Of a stretch of 48,856 nucleotides of DNA, positions 1 through 48,856 are shown piece by piece (position 1 is the first letter of the stretch; each line of letters begins with the position of its first letter). The stretch spans positions 1 through 48,856 of the IMG/VR virus record IMGVR_UViG_3300037341_000028; one strand, 5' to 3'. The position numbers and the translations under genes are program-made. Below the pieces are notes generated by a model, which was given only the letters and a program-made list of their open reading frames with translations, had not been told where the DNA came from and searched no databases. Source of the stretch: a virus.

Positions 1-120
1 CCGAACCCACATAACGATCAACACCAGAAGCAGCGGCACAATCGACACCCAGTGCCGCTGAAACATTTGCATTTCGGTTGCCTCTGGATTGCGTATCCAG
101 TCTGCCAGGATGATGAGTGC
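1..120. repeat. Left copy of 120-base terminal direct repeat
   Basis: Identical to the last 120 bases of the window (48737-48856). The repeat falls inside a small gene that becomes intact when the ends are joined, so it most likely marks the overlap of a circular assembly rather than a packaged terminal repeat. The unit genome is then 48,736 bases. Confidence 0.95.
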
Positions 121-12383: not shown

Positions 12384-13514
12384 CTACGCCTCTACCTTCT
12401 CCACCGTCAACCCTTCCGCCTCACATCGCTGTAGGATAATCTCGCAAAAGCCTGGATCGATTTCAATCATCCGGGCTATGCGGCCTGTGCGGTGTGCTGC
12501 AATCAGTGTAGCACCGCTACCTCCAAAAGGCACATACACCAGGCTTTCAGGTGAACTGTATTGTTGAAGCAGCGACACGAGCACATCAAGCGGCTTTTCG
12601 TGTTTGTGGTGCACGCTTGTATAGGAACTCTCGAAAAATGTTGACGGTGGCGCCCCGTTTTCTCCACGCCATTCGGCGTTGTAATAATCAATATTAAAAA
12701 TCCAAATATTACGATGATGGCAAAATGGACGTTGACCGCTGTACATCCGCCCAAAATGGAATCGCCACACCAGATCAACATCAGGCCAGTTTTGCCACTC
12801 CAAACATACCGGAGATAATTCAAACGCCATGCCCCATAGGGTTATAGTACCCTGGCATAGTTCTAATGCGTCAACCTGTTGGATCACACCCATTTCATAT
12901 GGCGGATCAACCTCAGAAAATGACGCCCGCTCGCCCTGCATCAACCGTTCCACTGTCGCCGGGTCGGTGCAGTCTCCACAGATGAGCCGATGCACGCCGC
13001 CGAGGAGCCACACGTCACCCGGCTGCACGCGGCACGACGCGGCCTCGTCGGGTTCAAACTCATCGCCGCCATTGCCGGGCTCGGGCAGTTCCGGCGTCAA
13101 TCCATCAAGCAGCGCGCCATACTCGGCATCGTCAAACCCCATCGCAGCAATGTCAAAATCAGCCTGCTGCAACTCATCAAGCAGCGCAGCCAGTTCGGCG
13201 TCGTCGGGTTCGGCCCCGCGCCGCGTCTCGTTGTCAGCTACGAGATAGGCCATGGCCTGCTCTTCTGTCCAGTCGTCGGGAAGATGGGTTAGTTGAGTGA
13301 CACGCAACGATGTATAGCCGAGATGCTGTGCAGCCAGGTACACGCCGTGGCCCGCGACGATGGTGTCGCCGTGCACCACGATAGGGCGCACCTGACCGAA
13401 CTGGCGCAAGCTGGCAGCAAGCCGCTCAATCTGCTCAGGCGGGTGCTGATTGTAGTTGCGCGGGTGTGGCGACAGCGTATCAATGTCGCGTGTCTGTTCA
13501 ATCGGTTCGCTCAC
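12384..13514 (-). CDS. ParB-like domain plus DNA N6/N4 methyltransferase
   Basis: 376 residues from a GTG. Residues 11-75 form a ParB/sulfiredoxin-like domain (LSPHPRNYNQHPPEQIERL, then IVAGHGVYLAAQHLG). Residues 160-370 form a beta-class amino-methyltransferase: catalytic DPPY at 203-206, HEKP at 305-308 and the SAM-binding VYVPFGGSGATLIAA at 326-340. Such proteins methylate adenine or cytosine on phage DNA, often as protection from host restriction. The usual residue after DPPY is Gly; here it is Glu. It precedes the terminases and follows lysis-side genes. Target sequence is unknown. Confidence 0.85.
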   Translation of the reverse strand: MSEPIEQTRDIDTLSPHPRNYNQHPPEQIERLAASLRQFGQVRPIVVHGDTIVAGHGVYLAAQHLGYTSLRVTQLTHLPDDWTEEQAMAYLVADNETRRGAEPDDAELAALLDELQQADFDIAAMGFDDAEYGALLDGLTPELPEPGNGGDEFEPDEAASCRVQPGDVWLLGGVHRLICGDCTDPATVERLMQGERASFSEVDPPYEMGVIQQVDALELCQGTITLWGMAFELSPVCLEWQNWPDVDLVWRFHFGRMYSGQRPFCHHRNIWIFNIDYYNAEWRGENGAPPSTFFESSYTSVHHKHEKPLDVLVSLLQQYSSPESLVYVPFGGSGATLIAAHRTGRIARMIEIDPGFCEIILQRCEAEGLTVEKVEA

Positions 13515-17139: not shown

Positions 17140-17369
17140 GCATTTCCCTCCACTTGCTCTCGCAGCCGTTCCATGGCTAGCGGCAGACTGTACCACGGCG
17201 GCGCGTCTGTGTCGTCTAGCGTCCAGTATGGCGCCGTGGGCGCCTCGATACCGAGTGCAGTAGCAAGGCGCTCCAATTCGGCATGTAGAGCGCGGCGTTG
17301 TTCGGCCCGCGCTGCCAATTCGGGCTGGTCGGAGTGGTGGCGTTGTGTGGTGAGTTTGCGGCGTGCCAT
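17136..17369 (-). CDS. Small protein downstream of the primase-helicase, unknown
   Basis: 77 residues; its ATG shares a base with the stop of the primase-helicase gene. Residues 1-20 are basic (MARRKLTTQRHHSDQPELAA), followed by a helix (RRALHAELERLATALGIEA) and an acidic Trp-containing segment (APYWTLDDTDAPPWYSLPL). No family is recognised; a partner of the helicase is only suggested by coupling. Confidence 0.6.
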   Translation of the reverse strand: MARRKLTTQRHHSDQPELAARAEQRRALHAELERLATALGIEAPTAPYWTLDDTDAPPWYSLPLAMERLREQVEGNA

Positions 17370-19546
17370 TAGTAGCCCTCCACAGCGTTATACCCGCCGT
17401 TCTCATGCAGCCATTGTGCAACCTGATTACTCGCATCCGCCCGACTTGCAAATGGTTCGGGCCAAATGATATGGCCTTGATCATCCGTTAACCAGTGCTG
17501 CCCATTGTCGATTGTGATGCGGAGTGTACCCGATGTGTGTGCACTGAGTACATCCCCGATGTACTCTTTTTGCGATTTTTCGCCTATAGAATAGCAGGCA
17601 GAGTAGGCAGAGTTACCAAAAAATGCCGTTTTATCGCTTCCTGATGCGTCGCCAACTCTGCCACCCCCCCAGGCAGAGTTAGGCAGAGTTGGGGCCCCGT
17701 AGGCAGAGTGCCTACTCTGCCTACTATTCCCACTCTGCCCACTCTGCCTACTCTGCCTGCAAATTTTCTCGTATTTGCCATAACCCACTTTACGAACAAG
17801 CAAGCTATCGGCAAGGTGACGTAACTGTTTTTGCACAGCATTGACGGTGGTTTCCAGTTCGGCGGCGATGTCTTTGGGTGTGTACTGGATGCCTTCCTGC
17901 ATTACCTCCAGAACGCGCTGGCGCTCGCTCGTGATGGCATATGCAGCCGCGTCACCTTCGATACGGTGCTCAGTCGCATAATCATCCCATGACAGCGCCA
18001 GTTCCTCATCGTCAACATCGCGGCCACGAATATGGAGCACCATGTCATCAGAGCCAGGCACGCGCCCGATAATCCACATCGTTGCGACGCCGCCCGTCAG
18101 ACCAGTAGAACCGCTGATCTCATCAAATACATCATCGGCCTTGGCCTTGCGGGTGTGATGAATAGTAATGATCGTAATGCGGTGGCGCTCTGCAAACTCG
18201 TTCAATGGCTTGACAGCATTGTAATCGTCGTCGTATGGGTTTGCGTTCTTGTCTCGTGGTGCCCTGATATTCTGAAGGATGTCCACAACAATGAGCGCGG
18301 TTTTCGGATGATGCTGCATCCATTCCTCGAGCATCTGAATGCCCGCCTCGCCGCGTTCCCAGGATGTAAAAAGATGGAAGTTATCAGGCCATTCGAGGGT
18401 ATCCCCAAGCATTGCCCCGACGCGGCTTTTCATGCGGCGTTGATTGCTCTCCAGATCGAGATACAGCACCTCGCCGGATCGTGTGTCCAGACTGTCAAAC
18501 GCCTTCCGCTGCTGCATTGCCACAGCCAGTGACAGACCGAGCGCCAGCCATGACTTCTTGGTCTTCGGTTTGCCAGCCATCAGGCAACAGCCTTCCGGTA
18601 GCAGGCCCGGCACAACCCACTGCAACTCGTCAAACTCTTTACGACGCAGCGCAAACAGCGTAATGCCTTCTTGTATCCAGGCTGGCGTATAGACTGTGCC
18701 AGTACGGGCGCGCTTTTCGAGTGCCTGCAATGTCTCTTCGGGGTTGTCGCGGCAGAAATCAGCCAGGTCATAACCGAAATCATGACCCAGATCAATCGCC
18801 GTTCCCCTTACCTGCTCAGCGATTTGGGGTGCAATCCTACGGCCTTTATCGTCGCTATCGAGCGCCACATACACCCGGCCCTGCCATCGCTCCTGAAGCT
18901 CTTCTACAAGCAGCTGCGGTAACTTCTTCTCACCGCCTGGTACACAGATGGCAGGCACACCGTAGTGATGAGCGACCACAGTAGACGCCTCGCCATTGCA
19001 GATGATCAGGCAGTCGAGTTGCATACTGATTGCCACACCAAGCCCATACCAACACGGTTTCCAGCCTTTTTCGTGATCGTACTTCAGCCCGGCTTTCTCT
19101 TCGTCCAGATACCGATACCGGGTGCCCGTCTGTGTCGCAATAGCCAACACCTTATGGCCGCGCCGCCGGGTTTCTTTCCACCCGGCGCGGCTAAATACCT
19201 GTTTGCTCACACCGTGTTTTGTAGCGTAATCCTCGAGCGAGGTATACGCCGGTTTCGGTGCGTATGTGGCGCCCTGCGTCAACCCGGCGCGCTCCCAGGC
19301 GGTGCCTGGTAACTGCGTGTCGTTGGGTGTCTGGATATTCAGGCGCTCAGCCAACTCCCGCTGGCTCCCGCCTTCCTCGTCTTTGTGATCGTACCAGACT
19401 AGAAAGCCATCATCGTTTTCCGACACGGCGAGCGTGCCCCCATCGGCATCGGCTCGCCACGGTGTGTTGTAGCGGCCTTCGCCGTGCTGTGTATTCTGGT
19501 ATGGTTCGAGTGCCTGCAAGATAGCGGTTTTTGTGTCGTACATCAT
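17369..19546 (-). CDS. Toprim primase-like / RepA-type helicase replication protein
   Basis: 725 residues from the ATG at 19546, preceded by AGGACACG. Residues 1-95 resemble the N-terminal unit before phage Toprim domains but lack zinc-binding Cys. The Toprim fold spans about 175-270 with Glu186 (CNGEAS) and Asp230/232 (ALDSDDKG). A RecA-type AAA domain spans 310-530 with Walker A around 324-332 (AGKPKTKKS) and Walker B 418-422 (LIVVD). A winged helix lies around 540-595. Residues 596-655 are a Gln/Ser/Arg/Gly-rich linker encoded by repeated DNA 9-mers. It is expected to unwind the origin and possibly prime synthesis. Walker A has Lys where Gly is usual. Confidence 0.85.
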   Translation of the reverse strand: MMYDTKTAILQALEPYQNTQHGEGRYNTPWRADADGGTLAVSENDDGFLVWYDHKDEEGGSQRELAERLNIQTPNDTQLPGTAWERAGLTQGATYAPKPAYTSLEDYATKHGVSKQVFSRAGWKETRRRGHKVLAIATQTGTRYRYLDEEKAGLKYDHEKGWKPCWYGLGVAISMQLDCLIICNGEASTVVAHHYGVPAICVPGGEKKLPQLLVEELQERWQGRVYVALDSDDKGRRIAPQIAEQVRGTAIDLGHDFGYDLADFCRDNPEETLQALEKRARTGTVYTPAWIQEGITLFALRRKEFDELQWVVPGLLPEGCCLMAGKPKTKKSWLALGLSLAVAMQQRKAFDSLDTRSGEVLYLDLESNQRRMKSRVGAMLGDTLEWPDNFHLFTSWERGEAGIQMLEEWMQHHPKTALIVVDILQNIRAPRDKNANPYDDDYNAVKPLNEFAERHRITIITIHHTRKAKADDVFDEISGSTGLTGGVATMWIIGRVPGSDDMVLHIRGRDVDDEELALSWDDYATEHRIEGDAAAYAITSERQRVLEVMQEGIQYTPKDIAAELETTVNAVQKQLRHLADSLLVRKVGYGKYEKICRQSRQSGQSGNSRQSRHSAYGAPTLPNSAWGGGRVGDASGSDKTAFFGNSAYSACYSIGEKSQKEYIGDVLSAHTSGTLRITIDNGQHWLTDDQGHIIWPEPFASRADASNQVAQWLHENGGYNAVEGY
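17596..17758. repeat. Ten 9-mer repeats inside the replication gene (iteron-like, possible origin)
   Basis: AGGCAGAGT occurs directly at 17596, 17605, 17671, 17681 and 17701. Its complement ACTCTGCC(T) occurs at 17655, 17714, 17732, 17741 and 17750. Five copies per orientation in 163 bases, arranged as direct groups that face each other, are far more than chance. They encode the low-complexity linker of the primase-helicase. Phage origins inside the initiator gene are known (lambda ori lies in gene O), so an origin is a reasonable inference; a coding repeat of no further role is the alternative. Confidence 0.7.
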
Positions 19547-19565
19547 CGTGTCCTGATTTGCAATA

Positions 19566-20120
19566 TTATTCGGCCACTTCTCCATCGATAACCGTGCCGT
19601 CAAACTCGCTTGCCAGGTACAAGCCGGCTAGCAGATCAGGCACCACGATGCGAGCGCACATACTGATAGCGCGCCACCTGCACATATTCGCCGGGTACTT
19701 TTTCCAGTTGCTATCTGGTTTCACCAACCCGGCCCGCTCTGCATCCTTCACGCTATAGGTAAGCGTGAAGCGAAACCCGGTACTCCTGATCATCGTAACG
19801 GTGCAGGCGTCGTCGGTGCTGCTGTCAATCGAGAGGCGCACAATGTCGGGTCGGCTTTGGATTTTCGCTAGCATTCCCTGCGAGGTGAGCGCAACCTTGC
19901 CCATTACCACTTGCAGATTATCGCCCACCGAGGAAAGCGGGAACCCCAGTTCATACGCCTTGAGCATCGCAAACGCGGCCTGCTCCGGCTTACTCACGCC
20001 TGCTACCAGACGGCATTCATAGACGGTTTCAGCCATCGATGTAATCAGATGCCACGCCTCAGGCGTCACTTCGCGCCGCGCAAGTTCGGTGGTTGTGGTC
20101 GGTACCAATTCGGTGGTCAT
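19566..20120 (-). CDS. RecT-like single-strand annealing protein
   Basis: 184 residues. The block QAAFAMLKAYELGFPLSSVG, then LQVVMGKVALTSQGMLAKI, and near the end WKKYPANMCRWRAISMCARI and VVPDLLAGLYLASEF, is the shared layout of a short RecT-related family in phages: a motif for growing on ssDNA ends, a G-K-x-x-L-T strand and a conserved K/R-P-x-M-x-R-x-R. Such proteins anneal complementary single strands during recombination and replication restart. It overlaps the stop of the ERCC4-like gene by 4 bases and lies just before the primase-helicase. Confidence 0.75.
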   Translation of the reverse strand: MTTELVPTTTTELARREVTPEAWHLITSMAETVYECRLVAGVSKPEQAAFAMLKAYELGFPLSSVGDNLQVVMGKVALTSQGMLAKIQSRPDIVRLSIDSSTDDACTVTMIRSTGFRFTLTYSVKDAERAGLVKPDSNWKKYPANMCRWRAISMCARIVVPDLLAGLYLASEFDGTVIDGEVAE

Positions 20121-22369: not shown

Positions 22370-22621
22370 ATGACGAAGGTTGTGAATAAGTTAAAAAAAA
22401 TTCGCCTCATGCGGTCGGCAGAGATGAATGTTCATCTGTCATTGTCAGCCGTAGCTCGAGAAATCGACTACAGCCGAACCAACTTATTTTATTTCGAAAC
22501 CAGGACAGATCGCATACCGACGGCTGAGATGCTGGCCCGTTTAGCGGATTTTTACGGCGTCGAGCCGGGCGCCCTGATTGGGTGGAACGAGGATATTGTA
22601 ACAGAGGAGACAGAACAGTGA
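22370..22621 (+). CDS. XRE/Cro-type helix-turn-helix regulator
   Basis: 83 residues from the ATG at 22370, behind GGGGAGGGG. Residues 8-75 form a lambda-repressor-like domain: KKIRLMRSAEMNVHLSLSAV, helix-turn-helix AREIDYSRTNLFYFET, then RIPTAEMLARLADFYGVEPG, which is the usual end of Xre/Cro domains. There is no C-terminal cleavage domain. As the first gene behind one of two divergent early promoters it is the best candidate for the lysis/maintenance switch or an early repressor. Confidence 0.85.
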   Translation: MTKVVNKLKKIRLMRSAEMNVHLSLSAVAREIDYSRTNLFYFETRTDRIPTAEMLARLADFYGVEPGALIGWNEDIVTEETEQ

Positions 22622-24483: not shown

Positions 24484-24708
24484 ATGAGTGACCGTGCCAC
24501 GCGATACCGCAAGCGCCATCCGGAGCGTGTCAAGGAGGCACAACGCCGCTGGCGCGAGCGCAACCGCGAACAGCGCCGCGAATACAACCGCGAGTATAAG
24601 CGGCGAACGCAGAAGGGCTACCGCCAGCGCCGCAAGGTTGCGCTATGGAATAGCATTATAGGGGTGTACGAGCGTGACGAAACAACAGACATTTGTAGAG
24701 ACACCTGA
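24484..24708 (+). CDS. Highly basic helical protein
   Basis: 74 residues, starting right after the previous stop. Residues 5-52 are almost only Arg, Lys, Glu, Gln and Tyr (RYRKRHPERVKEAQRRWRER and NREYKRRTQKGYRQRRK), one long basic helix likely to contact nucleic acid, similar in feel to N-terminal parts of phage HNH-associated proteins. Overlaps the next gene by 35 bases. Confidence 0.55.
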   Translation: MSDRATRYRKRHPERVKEAQRRWRERNREQRREYNREYKRRTQKGYRQRRKVALWNSIIGVYERDETTDICRDT

Positions 24709-25585
24709 ACCTGAAGCCATTTTACGCGCTGCTGTGGCCGCGTATGAGCCGCGCCTTGTTGTGGCTGCCGTGTCAGGAGGGCGCGATAGTATTGCAGCCG
24801 CGCACGTCGCCAGTCAGCACCCGCGATTTGCAGGCGTTTTGCACCTCAATACAGGCATCGGTATTGAGGAAACACGCCAGTTTATACGCGACGTGTGCCA
24901 GGATCGTGGCTGGCGGCTCTGGGAGTATCGCGCTGTGGATAACTGCCGTGCTGATGGTACACCTGATCCAATGGTGTACGAGCGCCTCTGTATTGAACAC
25001 GGGTTCCCCGGCCCGGATCAGCATCGCAAAATGTACAGCAAACTGAAACAGCGCCCGCTCGCTATGTTTTTGCGGCATATTAAAGAGCGGCGCGGTGACA
25101 GGATTATGATTGTAGATGGCATCCGCAGTCAAGAGAGCGTACGAAGAATGGGCAATGCTGCGCTACAACGGCGCGACGCGAAAACCGGCTGTTACTGGTC
25201 ATCGCCGCTATACTATTTCGACAAAGGCCAACGCGACGAATACACAGCAGCCTATGACTTGCCTGTCAATCCGGTGTCGGAGCGGTTGTGCATGTCGGGC
25301 GAATGCAAATGCGGTGCCTATGCGACGATAGGCGAGCGCGATTTGGATAGGTTTTTCTATCCTGATTTCGCCGCCGATCTGGATAGGATTGAGCAGGCAG
25401 TACAGGCAGCTCGCGACGACTACAACGTCTGGGGATGGGCAGCCACACCAGAACACGCCCGCCGCTGGGCGCGTCAACGTGTGCCAGCGGGGCAATCTGA
25501 TTTTTTGCCGCTTTGTGTCGGCTGCGATAATCGGATGGCAATGCAAGCTGAAGTGATAGGAGAGCAGGATGGCACGACGCGCTAA
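24674..25585 (+). CDS. PAPS-reductase-like ATP pyrophosphatase family protein
   Basis: 303 residues from a GTG. The PP-loop SGGRDSIAAAHVA at about 34-46 binds ATP; GVLHLNTGIGIEETRQFI and VDGIRSQESVRRMG match the core of the phosphoadenosine phosphosulfate reductase superfamily. Cys pairs LCMSGECKCGAY (about 214) and LCVGCDNR (about 281) look like an iron-sulfur or metal site, as in DndC and related phage proteins. It may activate sulfur or adenylate a substrate for nucleic acid modification; the phage roles of this family are not settled. It overlaps a VRR-NUC nuclease gene by 17 bases. Confidence 0.8.
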   Translation: MTKQQTFVETPEPEAILRAAVAAYEPRLVVAAVSGGRDSIAAAHVASQHPRFAGVLHLNTGIGIEETRQFIRDVCQDRGWRLWEYRAVDNCRADGTPDPMVYERLCIEHGFPGPDQHRKMYSKLKQRPLAMFLRHIKERRGDRIMIVDGIRSQESVRRMGNAALQRRDAKTGCYWSSPLYYFDKGQRDEYTAAYDLPVNPVSERLCMSGECKCGAYATIGERDLDRFFYPDFAADLDRIEQAVQAARDDYNVWGWAATPEHARRWARQRVPAGQSDFLPLCVGCDNRMAMQAEVIGEQDGTTR

Positions 25586-26737: not shown

Positions 26738-26884
26738 AGGCGTGGCTAGGCATGGCTAGCCTTTGGCGAGGTGTGGCACGGCATGGCAGGGCAGGCTAGG
26801 CACGGCTGGGCGAGGCACGGCAGGGCAGGCGTGGCGTGGCTTGGCGGCCCCCGGCATGGCGGGGCGGGGCATGGCAAGGCGTGG
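26738..26884 (+). repeat. GC-rich pentamer array 1 (NGGCN units)
   Basis: About 147 bases of imperfect tandem five-base units of the form NGGCN, most often AGGCA, TGGCA, GGGCA, CGGCA and TGGCG. It fills the region 26699-26911 between the Myb-like gene and the next start, apart from an AT-rich stretch at 26699-26737 that may hold a promoter. Strand-asymmetric (G-rich on +). See array 2 at 28168. Confidence 0.85.
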
Positions 26885-28167: not shown

Positions 28168-28382
28168 ACACGGCAGGCAAGGCTAGCGGGGCTAGGCAGG
28201 TCCCGGCCCGGCAAGGCTTGGTATGGCAAGGCAAGGCAGGCATGGCAGGGCAGGGCGTGACCAGGCAAGGCTCGGCATGGTTGGGCAAGGCTTGGGAACC
28301 TGGGCACGTTCGAAAACTGCCCACAAGGCAGGCGGGGCAAGGCGCGGCGTGGCCAGGCCGGGCGAGGCGTGGCACGGCAAGG
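28168..28382 (+). repeat. GC-rich pentamer array 2 (NGGCN units)
   Basis: About 215 bases of the same degenerate pentamers as array 1, starting at the stop of the preceding gene and ending 26 bases before the dCTP-deaminase-like gene. It is interrupted at 28297-28326 by an island containing a hairpin (TGGGCA at 28301-28306 and TGCCCA at 28318-28323). An ORF passes through it only because the repeats lack stop codons. Confidence 0.85.
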
Positions 28383-32658: not shown

Positions 32659-32689
32659 ACGGCAACGGTACAGGAGACGAAAATCATAG

Positions 32690-32714
32690 CCCCGCTTCGG
32701 CGGGGTTTCGTTTT
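32690..32714 (+). terminator. Intrinsic terminator
   Basis: CCCCGC-TTCG-GCGGGG with a tail TTTCGTTTT: a UUCG tetraloop stem with T run. Separates the small-gene unit from the partition module. Confidence 0.95.
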
Positions 32715-32721
32715 GCCCGGA

Positions 32722-32777
32722 TTGTACAGGATTGACACAACGTGTTATAATTGGCTTATAAGTTTGTTATAAGTTGT
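32722..32777 (+). promoter_or_regulatory. parC: parM promoter with three 11-bp tandem repeats (parC candidate)
   Basis: Three contiguous 11-mers at 32745-32755 (TTATAATTGGC), 32756-32766 (TTATAAGTTTG) and 32767-32777 (TTATAAGTTGT). They overlap the -10 region: TTGTAC (32722), 18 bases, TATAAT (32746), or TTGACA (32732), 19 bases, TATAAG (32757). In plasmid R1, ParR binds 11-bp direct repeats around the parM promoter to form the centromere and repress the operon. The same repeat length and place here support a parC function; only three copies are seen, against ten in R1. Confidence 0.7.
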
Positions 32778-32792
32778 TGTGAGGAGGGGTGT

Positions 32793-33845
32793 ATGCATGT
32801 CGTGTATGATGATGGGGCTGGATTGACAAAGGCAGGCATAGCGGGCAATGGAATGCAGGTCACGGCGATACCAGCACTGGTGCTACCCGTTGAGGCGGGT
32901 ATGGATGAGGAGTACCTATTGCGTTCTGATGTGATTGTTATCGGTCATAATCGTAATCAGTATCTTGTGGGCGATGCGGCCCGCGCACAGGGCGCCACTG
33001 CCTATGCCACAAGCAACTACCGCTACACGTCGCCAGATGCGCGCATCCGCCTCTACGCGGCGCTGTCCGAACTACTCCCGCCTGGAGAGCACGCCATTCG
33101 GATGGTCGCGGGGGCGAACGCGGAAGCATATCGCGCATTAAAACGCGATATTCAAGACTTCTTCACAGGCTCACACGAGTTCACGCGAGCGGACGCGAGC
33201 TACCGTGTGAATATCACAGACGTGCATGTGACCTCACAGCCGCGTGGCGCCGTGCTCTATTTCAGCGCACATACTCCTGCTGAACTGAAACAGGCACTCC
33301 AGAAGCGACCGCTCCATAGGGCCAACATTATTGGTATTGACGTGGGCACATTCACCACCGATTTGATCGCGCTCCGGCCCGAACGGCGCGCCGATGGCAG
33401 CAGTGAAATGCAAGAAATCTACCGGCGTTCTAAAGCGTTGCGGTTTGGCGTCCAGACGCTACGCAATAAGGTTGCCGAGTTGATCCAGCGATTGCAAGGC
33501 GCGCCGGGTCTGCCGGAACTCTGGGAGGTTGATCGGGCCATTGCAGAGCGGGTTGTGACCATTGACGGCAAGGATGAGAGCATCGCGCCTGAGATTGACG
33601 ACCTTCGTGATAGTCTCTGGGCACGCGCACATGAGGAGATACGTGCCCATTTTGAAGGTTTCTCAACGCATTATTTGCTGGTTGTCGGAGGAGGCGCAAC
33701 AGATACGACGTTCGGGCCGTCCATTCGTGCAACGTGGCACGGAAAACTGCCGATGGGAATGCCAGAAAAACACGCGCCACACGAGGCGCCTGTCAGGGGA
33801 TATGCAGAAATGGCTGTGCAGAAGTGGGGCCGTGACAATGCCTGA
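32793..33845 (+). CDS. parM: ParM-like actin, segregation ATPase
   Basis: 350 residues from the ATG at 32793 (GAGGAGGGG upstream). Actin-fold motifs are clear: phosphate 1 VYDDGAGLTKAG at 4-15, phosphate 2 IIGIDVGTFTTDLIAL at 179-194 and adenosine motif YLLVVGGGATD at 294-304. Length and motif spacing match ParM/StbA and related plasmid actins (about 320-350). These polymerise into filaments that push or pull DNA bound through ParR. The parR-like gene overlaps its end by 8 bases, and three 11-bp repeats precede it. Phage relatives such as AlpC move prophage DNA, an alternative role. Confidence 0.9.
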   Translation: MHVVYDDGAGLTKAGIAGNGMQVTAIPALVLPVEAGMDEEYLLRSDVIVIGHNRNQYLVGDAARAQGATAYATSNYRYTSPDARIRLYAALSELLPPGEHAIRMVAGANAEAYRALKRDIQDFFTGSHEFTRADASYRVNITDVHVTSQPRGAVLYFSAHTPAELKQALQKRPLHRANIIGIDVGTFTTDLIALRPERRADGSSEMQEIYRRSKALRFGVQTLRNKVAELIQRLQGAPGLPELWEVDRAIAERVVTIDGKDESIAPEIDDLRDSLWARAHEEIRAHFEGFSTHYLLVVGGGATDTTFGPSIRATWHGKLPMGMPEKHAPHEAPVRGYAEMAVQKWGRDNA

Positions 33846-34038
33846 GCCGCGCCGCTATACACTGCTGCTCTATCTGGACGATGAGAGCGACAACGCCATT
33901 GCTGAATGGCTCGACAGCCTCTCATTACGGAAACGCCAAAACGATGTAAAGGCGGCCCTACTGCGCGGCATACAGCAGCAGAACGCGCCACAGCCGCCAC
34001 AGTCGCCTGATGACGATGATGATACGTTCACGCTCTAA
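33838..34038 (+). CDS. parR: ParR-like centromere-binding adaptor
   Basis: 66 residues. RRYTLLLYLDDESDNAIAEW followed by LDSLSLRKRQNDVKAALLRG is the ribbon-helix-helix pattern of small ParR proteins encoded just downstream of parM: a beta strand Y-T-L-x-L-x-L, then W-L-D-S-L...R.R...K.ALL. The C-terminus (PQPPQSPDDDDDTFTL) is disordered and acidic and ends in hydrophobic residues, as expected for the tail that grips the ParM filament end. It should bind the 11-bp repeats at 32745-32777. Confidence 0.8.
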   Translation: MPEPRRYTLLLYLDDESDNAIAEWLDSLSLRKRQNDVKAALLRGIQQQNAPQPPQSPDDDDDTFTL

Positions 34039-34048
34039 AGAGAGGACT

Positions 34049-34720
34049 ATGCATCTACAACACAAAGAAGCTACCGCAACGCAGGCCGTGCAGGAACTTG
34101 CAGCCGAACGGCTGTATATTGATGCGAAGCAAACCATACTCACCGCGGGCGCATCTACCGTGCTTGCATTCCAGGGCACGCTGGGGCTATTCGTGCTGTC
34201 TGCCGCAATCCCTGCGGGTGCGTGGCAATGGTATCCGCTCGGGTTTGGGTTGTGCGTGTTGTCGTTTCTGGCGTTCCTGATCCCGTATTTCACCTATAAA
34301 AAGTGGCGCGCTGATCTGGACTATGAAGCCGACCGCCGTGCCTTGATGCTTGATGCATACGAAGAAAAGCAAGGTGTCACCACGACGATCACCGCCAGTG
34401 AAACAACGATCACGGCAGACGACCCGGCCCGGCTGCTGCTACTCCTGTTCTCACTCTGGCAGCGACGGAACGAACACCCAACACCATGGTCTGTGCGCAG
34501 TCTAGAAGGGCCGCAATACCTGAGTGTTGATCGTCGCGTGTTTGGGACGGCACAAATCCACCTCGGACAGGTGCCGACGCGAGAACACGCTCAGCAAATT
34601 GCAGCGCGACTAGAAGGCGCCCGCCTGCTCTCAGGCAATGGTGAGCGCAGCACGCGCCGCCTGCAACCGCAAACACTGGAGGAGTTTTTGAATTTGACTA
34701 TACCGAGGGTACTGAGATGA
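34049..34720 (+). CDS. Membrane protein of the partition operon, unknown
   Basis: 223 residues from the ATG at 34049 behind AGAGAGGACT. Two hydrophobic helices occupy about 42-62 and 66-86 (LFVLSAAIPAGAW region and GFGLCVLSFLAFLIPYF), followed by a cytoplasmic, helical C-terminal domain with a short insert and QYLSVDRRVFGTAQIHLGQV. That part has the look of a winged-helix or DNA-binding segment (REHAQQIAARLEGARLLSGN). It follows parR by ten bases and overlaps the next gene (ATGA). Function unknown; a membrane link to the partition system is an inference from operon structure. Confidence 0.65.
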   Translation: MHLQHKEATATQAVQELAAERLYIDAKQTILTAGASTVLAFQGTLGLFVLSAAIPAGAWQWYPLGFGLCVLSFLAFLIPYFTYKKWRADLDYEADRRALMLDAYEEKQGVTTTITASETTITADDPARLLLLLFSLWQRRNEHPTPWSVRSLEGPQYLSVDRRVFGTAQIHLGQVPTREHAQQIAARLEGARLLSGNGERSTRRLQPQTLEEFLNLTIPRVLR

Positions 34721-35574
34721 CAGATGATCAACGACTAGCCATCGCCCGCCGCGAGTTGTATGGAGAATGGCGCCGCGCCGACTTGCAGCGCGTGCTTAAC
34801 ATAAAACAGACAAAAGCGGGCCAATTAATCCGGGAATGGGAAATTGCAGGGCATATTACTGTGCGATACTCTAGCACGACGCAGGTATGTGCGTGGGCAG
34901 CCGACAAACCCGTGTCCGAAACAGCACAGACAGACGGACAGATGCCCCCGCACGCGCCCGCGAGCGCCCGCACGCAACGCTCGCGCCGCGTCCCTATGCC
35001 CTGGATTGTAGCGGGCATCGCGTGTGCGTTCGTGATAGCTGCCGTGGCGTCGTTCGCGGCGCTCACTCGACAGAATGAGCCAGTAGCTGTACAGTCGACA
35101 CCCACAACGGCGCCCACTGCTACCCAAACAAGCATACCGATGGTCGCGGCCTACTACGCACCAGGCGGGGAGTATGCACAGGATATCCCCATCGGCGGGC
35201 CTGTAACCGGCACATACGGACGCTACGTCCAGATTGACGGCCATCTCTGGATAGAGGCACCCGATCTCGCAGAACCGACGCCAGCGCCGACACAGACGCC
35301 GCACGTCATTGTCGTAGAGCAACCCGCACCGCCCGCACCTCCTGTGCAGACAACCGCGCCAACCGCTACCGCCGCGCCAGTACTGCCGCCCGACACCGTG
35401 CGAACATCAGCAGGTGTTGAGGTTGAGGTGGCAGCGACGGCAAAGTCGGTCGGCTGGACGATTGCCTGTAATGCCGATGAGTGCCGGTGTTTTAGCGGCG
35501 CCGTACCAGATGGCTACAGCATAGCACGCCGGAACGTTGAGTCAGAGGCATGTATGCTAGCTGTGAAGCCGTAA
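34717..35574 (+). CDS. HTH-transmembrane-extracytoplasmic protein
   Basis: 285 residues with a clear domain order. Residues 1-65 hold a winged-helix-like part (LAIARRELYGEWRRADLQRV, NIKQTKAGQLIREWEIAG). Residues 100-122 form one transmembrane helix (IVAGIACAFVIAAVASFAAL). The rest is outside: a Pro/Thr/Ala-rich spacer (TPTTAPTATQTSIP), a small domain around 150-185 and an ending with Cys pairs (CNADECRC). DNA-binding inside and a wall-facing part outside suggest anchoring of DNA to the membrane or signalling. Last gene of the partition operon, before a strong terminator. Confidence 0.7.
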   Translation: MTDDQRLAIARRELYGEWRRADLQRVLNIKQTKAGQLIREWEIAGHITVRYSSTTQVCAWAADKPVSETAQTDGQMPPHAPASARTQRSRRVPMPWIVAGIACAFVIAAVASFAALTRQNEPVAVQSTPTTAPTATQTSIPMVAAYYAPGGEYAQDIPIGGPVTGTYGRYVQIDGHLWIEAPDLAEPTPAPTQTPHVIVVEQPAPPAPPVQTTAPTATAAPVLPPDTVRTSAGVEVEVAATAKSVGWTIACNADECRCFSGAVPDGYSIARRNVESEACMLAVKP

Positions 35575-35727: not shown

Positions 35728-35970
35728 ATGGCAGGCACAAATAACTTTCCGGCAATTGACGACATTGGCGTAATCGGTTACACGCTGCACGGTGGCTGTG
35801 TAGTAATCACACAGACGGATGATGGCGGATATCGCATCGCGTATCACGCACAAGACGGAATGCCCGAAACCAGTTCTGATATATTTGAAACACTCGAAAA
35901 AACACATGAGGCTATGGCGCAGATCAGGATCAACGGAGAATGGGCACCGATGGAAGAAATAGAGCAGTGA
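35728..35970 (+). CDS. 80-residue protein, unknown
   Basis: ATG at 35728 with AGGAGACAAGACA upstream. A beta-rich start (IGVIGYTLHGGCVVITQTDD, GGYRIAYHAQDGMPETSS) and a C-terminal helix with IFETLEKTHEAMAQIRING. Looks like a small one-domain protein with three or four strands and a helix. No family is recognised. Overlaps the next gene by 4 bases. Confidence 0.6.
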   Translation: MAGTNNFPAIDDIGVIGYTLHGGCVVITQTDDGGYRIAYHAQDGMPETSSDIFETLEKTHEAMAQIRINGEWAPMEEIEQ

Positions 35971-36152
35971 AACACCACACCACCCAGGAGGCCGCCCGCC
36001 TCTTGAGGCTCACCCAACAGGGCGTACTTGCAGCCATCAGGCGCGGCAAGTTGCACGCCGAAAAGCACGGGCGCGATTGGCAAATATCGGACGAAGAGGT
36101 CGAGCGGTATCGACAAGAGCCTCGGCAGCGCGGCAGGCCCAAGAAACAGTAG
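35967..36152 (+). CDS. Excisionase-type helix-turn-helix protein
   Basis: 61 residues from a GTG overlapping the previous stop. HHTTQEAARLLRLTQQGVLA followed by AIRRGKLHAEKHGRDWQIS, then EEVERYRQEPRQRGRPKK: a textbook helix-turn-helix of excisionase/MerR type (HTH_17) with a basic AT-hook-like tail (QRGRPKK). Probably a small transcription regulator, perhaps of its own promoter with the palindrome at 35638. Confidence 0.8.
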   Translation: MKHHTTQEAARLLRLTQQGVLAAIRRGKLHAEKHGRDWQISDEEVERYRQEPRQRGRPKKQ

Positions 36153-36317: not shown

Positions 36318-36623
36318 TTATACCACACTTCGCACGACGTTGAGCGTGGCCGAATAATCTGCCGGTGTCGTCGCCTGGCCTTCCATCAGGTTGTTCAACT
36401 GCTCTGCGAACGTCACCAGGCTCCCCAACTGCGCCGCCGTGAACGGGAACCCCGCGCCGGTCAAATCGGCGTCAGTGATCCGGTTCGCATTCGGGCTTTG
36501 TGGATCGCCTACGTTATATTCATTGTCGAAATAAATTGCATACGCCGTCTGGAGCGCCTCGTGTGCCTGTGCAATCGCCGTGCCTGCATCGACCATCGAT
36601 TGCACCAGTGTTGCCTTATCCAT
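36318..36623 (-). CDS. Small protein at the end of the tail operon, unknown
   Basis: 101 residues from the ATG at 36623. Helical start (KATLVQSMVDAGTAIAQAHE), an acidic turn with YFDNEYNVGDPQSPNA, then ITDADLTGAGFPFTAAQLGS and a C-terminal helix. The middle motif is seen in small phage proteins next to tail fibres, perhaps structural. Last gene of the leftward transcript before the convergent hairpin. Confidence 0.6.
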   Translation of the reverse strand: MDKATLVQSMVDAGTAIAQAHEALQTAYAIYFDNEYNVGDPQSPNANRITDADLTGAGFPFTAAQLGSLVTFAEQLNNLMEGQATTPADYSATLNVVRSVV

Positions 36624-36846
36624 ATATCCTCTCTCTCTGGTAGAACTCCCGCGCCACACCAGCCGGGCGCGCCACTCGAAACGGTTGCGGCTCGCGCACG
36701 GCAGACGGCGCCAGCTCCGGCGTGTTGCCCGCTGCGAGCCAGTCTTGATACTGCTGCCAGTGCCGGTTGCGCGGGTCGTCTGGAATGCTGCGCCCGCTTG
36801 GGACGTGGTACACGCCGCCGTCCTCGAGGAGTTTGTAATCTGCCAT
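36616..36846 (-). CDS. Small protein of the tail fibre region, unknown
   Basis: 76 residues from the ATG at 36846, one base after the fibre stop. Starts MADYKLLEDGGVYHVPSGRS with IPDDPRNRHWQQYQDWLAAG, a pattern common to short proteins near phage tail fibre genes (R-x-I-P-x-D-x-x-N-x-x-x-x-x-Y-x-x-W). The second half is Pro- and Arg-rich. It overlaps the next gene by 8 bases. Confidence 0.65.
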   Translation of the reverse strand: MADYKLLEDGGVYHVPSGRSIPDDPRNRHWQQYQDWLAAGNTPELAPSAVREPQPFRVARPAGVAREFYQRERIYG

Positions 36847-36847
36847 G

Positions 36848-38176
36848 TTACAGCTCCGCATCGATATCAACAGAGGATGATGCTGTAATGGTACGTAATA
36901 TGCCCGGTTGGCCGACGGTAAAACTTCCAGTTTTACCGACCTGGAAAAATGCCGTTTTGATACCAATATCACTAACAGCATTGATGGTGACGGGTGTGAT
37001 AACACCCGTAGATGCCAACACCTCAAATGTTCCAGATGTACTGATGCTCGGTATAACACGCTTTTCAACCCACTGAAAAAAGGCAAAAAACGTATTCGGG
37101 TTGCGAGCGAACCCTGGCCCGATTTGTTCAGCAGCGATATTACCCGCAAGCCGTTCAAAGTATCGCTGGCACAACGCAAGCTCCATACCAATCGGGCGCG
37201 GTTCGAATGGCGTCGTAAAGTTACCTTCGCTTAACTTTATCGCCTCATAATCTAGTGTGGTCAACTGTGATATGCCAGTCGTTGTATAAAACAATATACA
37301 TAGATTACTAAAAAGAGAACCCAATGTGACGGTATGGCTAAAATCTTGCCAGGTGTTGGCAGTCAGACTGATAGACTTCTCTGTCCCTGCAATAAGAAAG
37401 GTAGGGTCGAGTGTCACGGTAGAGCCCCAGGAGGATATGGGATCGTTTGGCACAACATCCTCGGTACCATACCATTCGGCGACAACTACTTTTACTGTTA
37501 CATTATTATCACAACGCAAAAAGCCGGACAGCGTTACCTCTTTACTTTGCAGGTGTTGGCAGTTTGCGCCTTCAACATACTGTGCTGTGCCTATTTGTTG
37601 AGGTGTGGTATTTTCCTGCCTCAACCTTACTGTATATCTTTGAGTAGTGCCACTTATCCTTATTACATCTACACTATTTGACAACTCTGACAAAACCTTC
37701 CAACGATCAAAACCATAGTCAGTATCATCGATAGTTGTAGCTGAAGTGGGATCATCTAGCCTCTGTGCAATAGCTCCATTCGGATTGATTACAACATTTC
37801 GAAATGCCGGATCATCGGCCCATTCTGGCGCGGTCTCTGCGCCATTGACAGTGAGCCGCTGTCCTGCTGTGCCGATACCAAGCCGCTGCAATCCAGAGCC
37901 GTCGCGATAGATGACATCCCCCTCTGTCGTGGTCGGGTCTGTCAAACTCGCATCGGCGGGTTCCCATTCGCCCGTGACGTTATTCCATGTCACCACCTGG
38001 CCCGCTGTGGCACCTGTCTGCAGGAGTTGATCGAGCCGGATATCGGCAGAGTTAACGACGTTTTCGGCAATGTCGTTTGCCTGTGCCAGCACCGCGTCGG
38101 TTTGTTCATCCTGATCGCGTTGAATGCGCTGTTGCCGTTTGCGCTCAATCTCAGCGGCGCGCTGCTGGAAGTCCAC
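36848..38176 (-). CDS. Tail fibre protein
   Basis: 442 residues from the GTG at 38176, preceded by GAAGGGGGCGTGTA and overlapping the hub stop; a longer start at 38215 would add a CPYC sequence. Residues 1-40 are a charged helix, then a linker with TAGQVVTWNNVTGEWEPADA and GDVIYRDGSGLQRLGIGTAG, the typical repeats of phage fibre shafts. A C-terminal beta-rich carbohydrate-binding-like region follows (DDTDYGFDRWKVLSE, VTLSGFLRCDNNVTVKVVVA, NTWQDFSHTVTLGSLF, EALCQRYFERL-like CQRYFERLAGN). This last region is common in fibres of many phages. Likely binds the host surface. Confidence 0.75.
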   Translation of the reverse strand: MDFQQRAAEIERKRQQRIQRDQDEQTDAVLAQANDIAENVVNSADIRLDQLLQTGATAGQVVTWNNVTGEWEPADASLTDPTTTEGDVIYRDGSGLQRLGIGTAGQRLTVNGAETAPEWADDPAFRNVVINPNGAIAQRLDDPTSATTIDDTDYGFDRWKVLSELSNSVDVIRISGTTQRYTVRLRQENTTPQQIGTAQYVEGANCQHLQSKEVTLSGFLRCDNNVTVKVVVAEWYGTEDVVPNDPISSWGSTVTLDPTFLIAGTEKSISLTANTWQDFSHTVTLGSLFSNLCILFYTTTGISQLTTLDYEAIKLSEGNFTTPFEPRPIGMELALCQRYFERLAGNIAAEQIGPGFARNPNTFFAFFQWVEKRVIPSISTSGTFEVLASTGVITPVTINAVSDIGIKTAFFQVGKTGSFTVGQPGILRTITASSSVDIDAEL

Positions 38177-41100
38177 TACACGCCCCCTTCTTTGACAATA
38201 TGGACATACTGCCACTCATTGGACAATGCCGTCACGTCGATGATAATAACCTCATCTGTTGTGCTATTCCACACGTGCACCTCATTCGACGCAATACCGG
38301 CGATCAACTCCCTGCTTTGTGCATCGCAGTGCAGCCAATTGACAGCCAATCCCGACATTGCAACGGTCTGATCGCTCGGGGTGCCGAACGGATCGAGGAT
38401 TTCCACAATGCCATTGCCTGTTGCGATGCATAATCTATCCCCAACGGCAATGGCTGGAGGGGTTTTGGCAGAAGCAGCGGCGCGTGCTTGCGTCGGAATG
38501 GCGGCGCCGCGATAGTCGGCAGACACATAGGTATACCCGTCAAAACTCGGGTCGTCTGCTCGCAGTGCAACTTTTCGGCTGGCGCCAGGATAGCGGTTGC
38601 CGTAGAACAGTACATCGATGTCGCCAATATTCGGCGACGGCTCCACTAATGTACCACTGGCATTGGCATACAAAAGGTATTCGTCTGGGAAATTTTGATA
38701 CATAATCGTATCGCCGCCGACGCCTGCCCCGATGAGATACAGCGCACGAGCGCCAGTGGCTAGCGTTGACAGCTCATACTCTTGCGTGCTTGCCGTACCA
38801 GTGCCGCGAAATAGATACGATGTGTGGTCGCTCAATAGTGCCGTAAACATCCACAGGCCATTTGTCTCGGTATCCCACTCGGTGCGTTCCATGACGACCG
38901 TTCCTGACACCAGGGATGTTGAGATAGTAACCTCTTGCCACGTCGTGCCACTCCAGCGCCACAGCGGGCTATAGGTGGAGCCGTTGCTCACCAGTTGGCC
39001 GCTACTCACCACCGCCTCCTGATTGCCGTTCGTGTGGATAATCGCCAGCCACTCACCACTATTGAGCGGATTGGCAACAATCCACTCAACCCACAGCGTG
39101 ACAGCCGGAAGCCCCGCATTGCGCAGCGTTGCCGTACCATCGGAGCGCACTTCGTACACGCCGGCCTGCGTGACATTGCGCTGCGGAATGAGCAGATACC
39201 AGTCCTCCGGCAGTTTCGTTGCCCCCACTGGCAGGTATCCGATGGCAGTGGTAGCCGTACTCACATCGTCAATTCGTAGCAGCGTGTTGATATCGTTGTT
39301 GATGATTTTTAGCGTGCCCTGGTTCGTGCCTGTGCCAACATCCCCGATGTAGCAGAGATCGTTAAACGGGCTGTCGCCCCCGACGGCGCCGTCTCGCAGC
39401 AGCGATGCAGTGTTGCCGCTCGTGTTTGTGCCGATAGCAGTCGCGTCAAAATTGACGCCGTTTTGCAACAGCAGGTACAGGTTGCCTGACGCGTCCCCAG
39501 CGATGTAGCCCGGCTCCGTGGCAAGCGGCGTGATCGCCGTGAGTGATGTGGGACTTAGCGCGCCCCAATTCACAGTATAGCCCTGCTGAATTTTGAGTGC
39601 ATTCGTGCTATTCCCGGCGCTGCTGAATACTGCCGCGTTGCCCCATGGTGCATCTGCAAGTTGCTCGGCTGTGCTGCCCATAGCCCCGGTGATTGCGGTA
39701 GTCCACGACGCGCCGCCGTCAAAACTCTCCAGTACATCGGCGCCCTCGCAAATACGGATATAGTCTGCGTTGTCAGGCGGCGTGCTCACGTCGGCAATGG
39801 CAGCATTCGAGCGCAACAGTGTGAACGATGCGCCCTCATCAGTCGAGAGGTACAGATCACTCCCCGCAGCAACAAGCACAATGGCCTGCTCTTCCTCAGG
39901 TATCCAGATAACGTCAATCTGCGTATTCGATGGATGTGTCCATATGAGCGCGGTGGGTGTAGGGTATATCCACTGATAGAGCGCACCGTCATCCCAACCC
40001 GACCACGCGCCATTGGGATTGAACTTCGACACCGCCGTGCAGGTTTGCCCCGTCCTGGTATGCGATCTCCAGCCACTCACAGTCAACAATCGATGCCCGT
40101 TGCTTCCTGTTGCCGTTGAAAGCGGCCTGAACAACGATTGCACGTCAACGGTATCCAGCGATTTGCTGATGCTCTGCGGTGTCGCAACACCGTCGTCAAC
40201 TTCCAGACTGATCGTAACGCTGGTGGGATCGCCCGTGTCGAGTACGAATGATGCTGTGTTGCCCGTCACGGGCGTGGAAGGCGTCGGCGTGGCGCCTGTC
40301 ACCGTCCATGTACGTGTGCCATCGTCTGATTGCGTCGCGTCAACGTGGACGAACAATCTATCTGATAGGCCCGCGCCCGTGTCAATTGGTTCGGTGTCCA
40401 CGGTGAGCGTGAAATCGACAAACAGCGGCGGCGGTACTGGATACCCTGGATCGGTAATACCAATGTCGTCTTTGTCATCCTCGCTGAACCCGGTACCTGT
40501 CAAATCCGGCACGCCGAGCGAGCAATTGAGCGTCATCGTCCCCTGGCTGGTGTCGGCACTCCTGACAATTGCCGTTGTGGTGACAACATAGCCCTGTCGA
40601 TTGGGAATGTCCAGTGCAATCGTTGTCGCTGGCAGCAGATCGGCATCCATCGCACACGGGATTTGCACGGTGCGTTTCGCACGAATACCTTTTGCCGTCT
40701 CGCGCTTTGCAATCAACTCGCAAACTGCATTGGACTGTGCAAAGCGGTATGTTCCACTCCCTGTTTTACCTGACACGCCTGTCGCGGCAAACGTGAAATT
40801 CGGTGTTGTGCCGTCTGATAATTTGCGGCCCCGCGCTACCCACCCGGCGATGACGCTCTCGAAACTACCGGCCTCGTCACTATAGCCTGCATAGATGCCA
40901 CGCTGATCGCCTGTCGGATCGCCATAGACATAGGTGTGCGCGCCCGTCTGCTGCGGAATGTCCAGATCATATGAGACGCGAATGACGCCGCCGGGAGTTA
41001 CCCATATGGCACACGATGTAAATTTCATCAACTCGTCTATGAGTTTCGCGACGTTTTCGGCGCCCGCCTCGAGCGTGATGCTCTCCACAGGGCAGAGATT

Positions 41101-41553
41101 GTAGTCAGTACCCGGGTCGTGAATGTCGCCTATCAACGCGCTGTCAATGCCTGCATCGGTGAGTAGATCAGTAACCGCGTCGGTAAATGGGCGATCATTC
41201 CAGGTGAGATCACTTGATAGCGGCTTGTCGAGTTGCCCGAGGATATCAATGAGCGTCAATCGAAATCCGAACGGCGCGATGCTCACCACGGGTTGGTCTG
41301 CAAAGCCGGTAAAAAAGCGACGGCGCGCTGACACCCCATCAACGCCCGCCGCATTGATTACGACGTAGGCAGACAGCGGCTCGCCTGTCGTGATCTCGAC
41401 ATACCGATCGAGCACCACCGTGCAATTACTGCGCTGCTGATTGTAGCCAATGCGGCGCCGGGGGAATGTCACGCAACGATAGTACACGCCGTCAATGTAA
41501 ACGGCGGCATTCCACGTGACGTGTCTGTCGGTAACGGGGAATGGAATGGTCAC
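38176..41553 (-). CDS. Tail hub / host-recognition protein with beta-propeller part
   Basis: 1125 residues. Residues 1-370 look like a tail hub: DGVYYRCVTFPRRRIGYNQQ, SAYVVINAAGVDGVSARRRF, GFADQPVVSIAPFGFRLTLI, WNDRPFTDAVTDLLTDAGID and the SCAIWVTPGGVIRVSYDLD motif. Around 375-455 lies an Ig/PKD-like domain with FVHVDATQSDDGTRTWTV. From about 470 there is a many-bladed beta-propeller with Asp-box-like turns STDEGASFTLL and SFDGGASWTTA, as in sialidase-type and HCF136-type propellers. Propellers at phage tail tips can bind or cut surface glycans. It overlaps the genes on both sides by a few bases. Confidence 0.8.
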   Translation of the reverse strand: MTIPFPVTDRHVTWNAAVYIDGVYYRCVTFPRRRIGYNQQRSNCTVVLDRYVEITTGEPLSAYVVINAAGVDGVSARRRFFTGFADQPVVSIAPFGFRLTLIDILGQLDKPLSSDLTWNDRPFTDAVTDLLTDAGIDSALIGDIHDPGTDYNLCPVESITLEAGAENVAKLIDELMKFTSCAIWVTPGGVIRVSYDLDIPQQTGAHTYVYGDPTGDQRGIYAGYSDEAGSFESVIAGWVARGRKLSDGTTPNFTFAATGVSGKTGSGTYRFAQSNAVCELIAKRETAKGIRAKRTVQIPCAMDADLLPATTIALDIPNRQGYVVTTTAIVRSADTSQGTMTLNCSLGVPDLTGTGFSEDDKDDIGITDPGYPVPPPLFVDFTLTVDTEPIDTGAGLSDRLFVHVDATQSDDGTRTWTVTGATPTPSTPVTGNTASFVLDTGDPTSVTISLEVDDGVATPQSISKSLDTVDVQSLFRPLSTATGSNGHRLLTVSGWRSHTRTGQTCTAVSKFNPNGAWSGWDDGALYQWIYPTPTALIWTHPSNTQIDVIWIPEEEQAIVLVAAGSDLYLSTDEGASFTLLRSNAAIADVSTPPDNADYIRICEGADVLESFDGGASWTTAITGAMGSTAEQLADAPWGNAAVFSSAGNSTNALKIQQGYTVNWGALSPTSLTAITPLATEPGYIAGDASGNLYLLLQNGVNFDATAIGTNTSGNTASLLRDGAVGGDSPFNDLCYIGDVGTGTNQGTLKIINNDINTLLRIDDVSTATTAIGYLPVGATKLPEDWYLLIPQRNVTQAGVYEVRSDGTATLRNAGLPAVTLWVEWIVANPLNSGEWLAIIHTNGNQEAVVSSGQLVSNGSTYSPLWRWSGTTWQEVTISTSLVSGTVVMERTEWDTETNGLWMFTALLSDHTSYLFRGTGTASTQEYELSTLATGARALYLIGAGVGGDTIMYQNFPDEYLLYANASGTLVEPSPNIGDIDVLFYGNRYPGASRKVALRADDPSFDGYTYVSADYRGAAIPTQARAAASAKTPPAIAVGDRLCIATGNGIVEILDPFGTPSDQTVAMSGLAVNWLHCDAQSRELIAGIASNEVHVWNSTTDEVIIIDVTALSNEWQYVHIVKEGGV

Positions 41554-41915
41554 CCTTCAAACCTCAGTGTACCCACATACTCATAATCCGTGCAACTCGC
41601 GAGCAATTCGGTAAGCGTGACACCAACTAGCGTCACGTCATACGTATTTGTGCCGTCGCTAAGTTGCCCCGGCTTGCCATACAGTTGTGAGACGTTGCGG
41701 AGTTTTAATGCGTCGGCAGTCGAGCAACGTATCTGAAAATCGCCGCCTTTGAACACAAGCGGGCCGTAGCCGAACACATCAACACGCCCCGCGATACCGC
41801 CGATGAACATATTCGTCTCATAGCGCGCCTCTCGCTGCGGTGTCAGTTTCGCATTATCGCCCGCCTGCGGCTCGAATGTTGCCGACACTGCCCCGACCGT
41901 AAACGTCCATGCCAC
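41550..41915 (-). CDS. Small tail protein between tape measure and hub (distal-tail-like)
   Basis: 121 residues, ATG sharing a base with the tape measure stop. Beta-rich, with AWTFTVGAVSATFEPQAGDN, EARYETNMFIGGIAGRVDVF and YGPLVFKGGDFQIRCSTADA. Position directly between tape measure and hub is that of distal tail protein (Dit) or gpM/gpL-like tip proteins. It is shorter than most Dit proteins, so it may correspond to the N-terminal ring domain only. Confidence 0.6.
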   Translation of the reverse strand: MAWTFTVGAVSATFEPQAGDNAKLTPQREARYETNMFIGGIAGRVDVFGYGPLVFKGGDFQIRCSTADALKLRNVSQLYGKPGQLSDGTNTYDVTLVGVTLTELLASCTDYEYVGTLRFEG

Positions 41916-48727: not shown

Positions 48728-48856
48728 CTACTTCCGCCGAACCCACATAACGATCAACACCAGAAGCAGCGGCACAATCGACACCCAGTGCCGCTGAAAC
48801 ATTTGCATTTCGGTTGCCTCTGGATTGCGTATCCAGTCTGCCAGGATGATGAGTGC
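48728..48856 (-). CDS. Second part of the junction-spanning small membrane gene (partial at the right edge)
   Basis: Same gene as 1-171: bases 48737-48856 repeat positions 1-120 and 48728-48736 hold its last codons and TAG stop. The copy is cut at the window edge. Confidence 0.75.
   Translation of the reverse strand, partial: ALIILADWIRNPEATEMQMFQRHWVSIVPLLLVLIVMWVRRK
48737..48856. repeat. Right copy of 120-base terminal direct repeat
   Basis: Exact match to bases 1-120; see the left copy. The length of 120 is compatible with an assembler k-mer overlap. Confidence 0.95.

Follow-up and report, generated by a model that had tools for sequence, protein, structure and literature searches.

Exchangeable actin-type partition cassettes in a clade of uncultured tailed phages suggest a plasmid-like prophage

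Why should a complete tailed phage carry the parts of a plasmid segregation system while showing no integrase? The question is raised by positions 32,722–34,038 of the IMG/VR record IMGVR_UViG_3300037341_000028, where an earlier note had described an actin-like ParM, a ParR adaptor and centromere-like repeats, and had read the element either as a phage-plasmid or as a phage that uses actin filaments to move its DNA. The window analysed here is the whole virus record, 48,856 nucleotides in length. With a probability of about 0.74, we consider the element to be a temperate phage-plasmid, that is, a low-copy circular prophage that relies for its stable inheritance on a type II (ParMRC) cassette, which is exchangeable for cassettes of other specificities.

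The record ends in an exact 120-bp direct repeat, and in G013 and G014, two independent relatives, the window ends map near each other and in order, with approximately 0.8–1.2 kb of additional sequence between the two end matches. For these two reasons, we regard the genome as complete and as circular or circularly permuted, in agreement with the circular genome proposed earlier. The structural set is also complete (terminase, portal, capsid/protease, head closure, tape measure, tail fibre, and amidase). A 1125-aa gene adjoining the tail genes (38176–41553, minus strand) had no Pfam or PHROG match, and a gene at 24674–25585 (plus strand) belongs to the PAPS-reductase family, one of the families listed as auxiliary metabolic genes of phages. 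The starts of two early genes are surrounded by dense short repeats of the GGCA type (GGCAGGGCAGGC and GGCAAGGC; 26738–26881 and 28210–28368).

Table 1. Features of the partition locus and of the phage genome, in window coordinates.
Feature	Position	Strand	Basis or remark
Direct terminal repeat	1..120; second copy 48737-48856	.	Implies a 48,736-bp genome that is circular or circularly permuted
Replication initiator: Toprim-like primase, AAA_25 helicase, winged-helix-like region	17369..19603	-	Replaced in G013 and G003
Candidate origin, ten exact GGCAGAGT iterons in both orientations	17597..17758	.	Lies in the 3'-terminal part of the initiator gene
Candidate regulator of lysogeny, XRE/Cro-C1 type (HTH_31/HTH_3)	22370..22621	+	Domain match
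Intrinsic terminator and start of promoter region	32688..32728	+	Left edge of exchanged segment; 93-95% identical between cassette types
Sigma-70-like parM promoter, TGTACA-17-TATAAT	32723..32751	+	10 of 12
Exchangeable cassette (repeats, parM, parR)	32729..34039	+	No DNA similarity to the same slot in L059, L060 and L033
Putative parC-like centromere, three 11-bp repeats, core TTATAA	32743..32775	+	Over and just 3' of the -10 box
parM, actin-like ATPase, type A allele, 350 aa	32793..33845	+	Pfam ALP_N, phrog_691, actin-fold residues, dN/dS
parR, predicted small DNA-binding adaptor, 66 aa	33838..34038	+	Plasmid_stab_B, model, acidic tail
Membrane protein, two hydrophobic segments	34049..34720	+	Probably same operon; unchanged across ParMR alleles
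Protein at the presumed operon end, judged by eye to have an HTH-like N-terminus and a Thr/Pro-rich, SH3-like outer part; one TM segment	34717..35574	+	
HTH_17 (excisionase-like/MerR-like) DNA-binding protein	35967..36152	+	Domain match

The parM and parR genes and the repeats at their promoter

The profile search proposed for the parM frame against ParM/Alp families gave a match to Pfam ALP_N above the cut-off (3.9e-15) and a full-length match to phrog_691, "partition protein" (4e-25), together with a match to MreB-like_C below the cut-off (4e-5). All three actin motifs described earlier are present, as the residues G8-x-G10, D183-V-G-T, and G299-G-G-A302, and the gene is under purifying selection (dN/dS of approximately 0.07–0.13). 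When ParM was compared with PDB chains by phmmer, nothing significant was found; a profile built from ParM types A and B matched CorM at E=4e-4 over a single stretch only, and the AlphaFold2 model, based on a seven-sequence alignment, had a pLDDT of 44.

As had been noted, parR overlaps the end of parM; the overlap with the parM stop is 8 bases, and the ParR protein matched Pfam Plasmid_stab_B just below the curated cut-off (7e-5). Its structural model (pLDDT 71) has an extended N-terminus followed by two helices, from which we infer the ribbon-helix-helix type that the earlier note had named; the search of this model against the PDB returned no fold match. The C-terminus of ParR is an acidic tail, DDDDDTFTL, and such a tail ends the ParRs of all cassette types. 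Purifying selection acts on parR as well (dN/dS of approximately 0.07–0.11).

The three contiguous 11-bp repeats reported on the promoter have TTATAA cores at 32745, 32756, and 32767. They were recovered by TRF (period 11, 3 copies), and the spaced TTATAA triple, with ≤3 mismatches allowed, occurred once in the window and 0 times in shuffled sequences. The repeats are conserved in four phages. The first TTATAA coincides with the -10 box of the parM promoter, and only the other two are therefore independent of it.

In established ParMRC systems, the repeats are bound by ParR, and the ParM filaments that it nucleates drive sister molecules apart (PMC9426499). By analogy, ParR dimers would bind the 11-bp repeats of this phage and form a partition complex and, because the repeats overlap the promoter, would also repress parM. 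The acidic C-terminal tail of ParR may then touch the ends of ParM filaments, and ATP-driven ParM polymerisation would separate the sister circles before division. The number of repeats (two or three, against ten in plasmid R1) and the ParR family match just below the cut-off weigh against this reading.

Exchange of repeats, parM and parR as one unit

Close relatives of this ParM, sharing 95–97% identity, are encoded in three other phage contigs. G013, a near-complete relative with approximately 79–91% identity over most shared structural genes, is without type A ParM; its slot holds a different ParM (type B) followed by a ParR-like gene, and the type B cassette was found in two more contigs, L059 and L060. 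When the window was compared with these two contigs, the terminator (38–41 bp) was shared, no DNA similarity was detected over 32729–34039, and the right flank (34040–35574) was 89–90% identical. Similarity stops at 32728/32729 and resumes at 34039/34040, and the replaced piece therefore comprises the repeats, parM, and parR, which change together as a single block while the flanks stay nearly identical. The type B replacement segment also holds one extra small gene ahead of the shared flank.

The two ParMs are 27% identical. Type B keeps the key actin-fold residues G8-x-G10, D183-x-G, T188, D190, and G299-G-G-A302, and differs from type A at V184 and T186 of D183-V-G-T. Its ParR also differs from that of type A, and its promoter region carries two TTGCAC repeats with the same 11-bp step, conserved in three phages. 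A remnant of a third cassette lies in G013 (L033:9113-9786), where the first residues of the homologue of the 34049 protein are fused to a ParM C-terminus and are followed by an intact ParR with 38% identity to the type B ParR; this remnant is the scar of an earlier cassette exchange. ParM scored above the cut-off in seven of seven slot-spanning contigs, and types A and B co-occur in the same samples, as judged by contig names. Viral scans with the downstream genes and with a ParR profile recovered the same phages, and a scan with the neighbour gene at 36321–36659 added one contig, which ends short of the slot. Just before its ParMRC cassette, G013 has a complete gene for DnaN, the DNA polymerase III beta clamp (L033:5839-6948), for which no counterpart was seen in the window.

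The exchange might reflect ordinary mosaicism of the early region, with the repeats being just an AT-rich promoter that has no functional tie to the proteins. The 28–36 kb region is indeed mosaic in general, and the first TTATAA overlaps the -10 box, leaving just two further copies. However, the repeats, parM, and parR switch jointly while the terminator and downstream genes remain; the 11-bp step recurs in type B with a different core (exact-match test with first-order resampling, p of approximately 0.003 for type A and 0.006 for type B); and the spaced triple is absent from the shuffles. This explanation is therefore extremely improbable. The swap of repeats, parM, and parR as a unit for a cassette with different repeats strongly supports the type II partition system proposed earlier, and the presence of a different cassette at the same spot in close relatives suggests a plasmid life in the host, with swapping of segregation systems.

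In Clostridium perfringens, ParR recognises its own parC only, and allelic ParMRC families determine plasmid compatibility (PMC9426499). If each allele of the phage cassette likewise recognises its own repeats alone, related phages with different cassettes could share one cell. ParR binding, filament function, and compatibility would all follow here by analogy with such characterised systems.

The second reading in the earlier note, DNA transport along actin filaments, places the function of the actin in lytic growth: as with AlpC/AlpA, it would move or position replicating phage DNA, with the 11-mers as attachment sites and no plasmid prophage. The element is a complete tailed phage, and its ParM shares ALP_N with AlpC-type actins, the C. 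glutamicum matches to PF17989 being below the cut-off. Furthermore, a partition gene by itself is no proof of a plasmid prophage, AlpC being cited as a counter-example (PMC8026635). However, motor precedes adaptor here, which is the order of ParMR and the reverse of that in alpAC (PMC4446434), and alleles with different centromeres are expected from plasmid compatibility, not from lytic transport, which offers no evident explanation for allelic specificities. Transport of this kind is thus the less likely of the two readings, and we regard it as unlikely.

The two genes downstream of the cassette remain when the cassette changes. The 34717–35574 gene is the last of the presumed operon and is kept across ParMR alleles; its product gave no family match above the cut-off, and its layout resembles that of RodZ, close to an actin gene. 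Its Thr/Pro-rich outer part may resemble Chloroflexota proteins. Because both membrane proteins are unchanged when ParMRC is swapped, motor, adaptor, and centromere could be interchangeable parts on a fixed membrane module, in which the 34049 and 34717 proteins would anchor the actin or DNA to the envelope as a phage RodZ-like partner, although we hold this to be quite improbable.

Replication initiators, integration genes and host

The large replication protein described earlier is a primase-helicase with a weak Toprim match, an AAA_25 domain, and a winged-helix-like C-terminal region. Copies of GGCAGAGT span approximately 160 bp of coding sequence directly after this last region; with one mismatch allowed in the 9-mer, ten copies were counted at the array, where the frequency in the remainder of the genome would predict approximately 0.04. 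The initiator of G013 combines Prim-Pol with AAA_25 and has GGAACCAT repeats (about 12493–12620), and that of G003 is of the Prim-Pol type; its array (41791–41906) consists of three GGTACTTC copies, repeated every 9 bp, and then three in inverted orientation. Each array lies in the 3' end of the initiator gene and uses a different 8-mer, with copies in both orientations, so that in each of the three phages a different primase-type initiator is paired with a different set of iterons. As judged from these sequences, the three arrays are probably initiator-specific replication origins.

G003 carries the type A cassette (92% DNA identity) beside a different initiator; the two modules therefore move independently. 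Replication modules are also swapped among lambdoid phages that are not plasmids, which weighs against the phage-plasmid reading. The lambda origin lies inside the O gene (PMC7157519), and lambda is no plasmid. In combination, the swapping of cassette and initiator may be read as the signature of plasmid-like compatibility types, a pattern known from the ParMRC plasmids of Clostridium perfringens and, in parABS form, from cluster A mycobacteriophages; compatibility is argued by analogy with plasmids. Genes for replication and partition are frequent in phage-plasmids and very rare in other phages; they often pass between plasmids and phage-plasmids, for which incompatibility escape has been suggested as the reason (PMC10879196).

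As the earlier note had claimed, no tyrosine or serine recombinase was found: searches of the window and of 15 related records with the profiles PF00589 (Phage_integrase) and PF00239 (Resolvase) returned nothing at E≤1. The same two profiles and PF00665 (rve) were silent at E≤1 in the seven slot-spanning contigs (the window and six relatives), which include two near-complete relatives. Control genomes gave matches in the recombinase, rve, and ParA profile searches. Mu-like transposition, hinted at by a Mu-F head protein, was rejected on the absence of rve; Mu-F proteins are found in many non-Mu phages.

A temperate phage might nevertheless integrate by means of unrecognised or host recombinases, in which case the cassette would help only in the phases preceding or following integration (pseudolysogeny). 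The genome does encode an excisionase-like HTH_17 protein, one 1125-aa gene is without a family, and very divergent recombinases can escape profile searches. Against this stand the silence of all three integration profiles at E≤1 in the seven slot-spanning contigs and the frequent occurrence of HTH_17 proteins as general regulators, and we judge hidden integration to be very unlikely.

The ParA ATPase of type I parABS systems was likewise not found, since a search of the seven slot-spanning records with AAA_31 (PF13614) was negative at E≤1. A fusion of a ParB-like nuclease/partition domain with an N6/N4 DNA methyltransferase is encoded at 12384–13514 (minus strand); without a ParA partner, it was rejected as a partition system and is probably concerned with DNA modification.

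The XRE-type regulator that had been described is present. Scans of genome contigs with ParM and portal, whose reach is close relatives, returned neither a host or host-genome copy nor an extrachromosomal lysogen, which counts against a plasmid prophage. The phage-plasmid state of the prophage, which the earlier note had offered as one of two readings, is favoured by gene content and cassette exchange.

Comparison with known partition systems

Plasmid R1 likewise has 11-bp repeats and a promoter-borne parC that is followed by parM and parR, so that the earlier comparison with R1 holds for layout; it does not extend to the number of repeats, since R1 has ten repeats flanking the promoter and the window phage has three. 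In AlpA/AlpC of prophage CGP3, a phage likewise encodes an actin and a DNA adaptor with a site at the promoter, but the adaptor precedes the actin, the reverse of the parM–parR order found here, and CGP3 is chromosomally integrated until induction (PMC4446434).

Cluster A mycobacteriophages are also tailed and carry a maintenance cassette that replaces the integrase in a fixed slot; those with parABS form extrachromosomal prophages, some with RepA (PMC7157519, PMC6550527). Their system is type I (ParA/ParB), and the alternative occupant of the slot is an integrase there and another ParMRC here. Among tailed Bacillus phages, IEBH and vB_BtS_B83 have a ParM-like actin and an RHH adaptor and are listed among circular plasmid prophages (PMC8026635). 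They belong to another phage group, and B83 has Xer recombinases, which are absent here; allelic cassette exchange is not described in the portions of that source consulted. ParM phage-plasmids are therefore already known in Bacillus, and what is new is the occurrence of exchangeable alleles within one phage clade. In a limited literature search, exchangeable type II cassettes with independently swapped initiators were not found for any one phage clade.

The closest parallel in allelic diversity is given by the pCW3-like plasmids of C. perfringens, whose type II ParMRC systems fall into families A–J with 15–54% ParM identity between families, and in which close replicons carry alternative alleles with divergent ParM (PMC9426499). 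Those plasmids are conjugative elements and not phages, their repeats are 17 bp long in pCW3, and their Rep is conserved, whereas Rep is swapped too in this phage clade. The swappable cassettes may set prophage compatibility, that is, which phages share a cell, in a plasmid-like manner. What had been a single gene annotation becomes a testable natural experiment on sets of motor, adaptor, and centromere, and the compact three-part cassettes, with matched distinct cores (TTATAA versus TTGCAC), would be useful for studies of ParR specificity. Allelic ParMRC diversity is in this way extended from clostridial plasmids to a clade of uncultured tailed phages.
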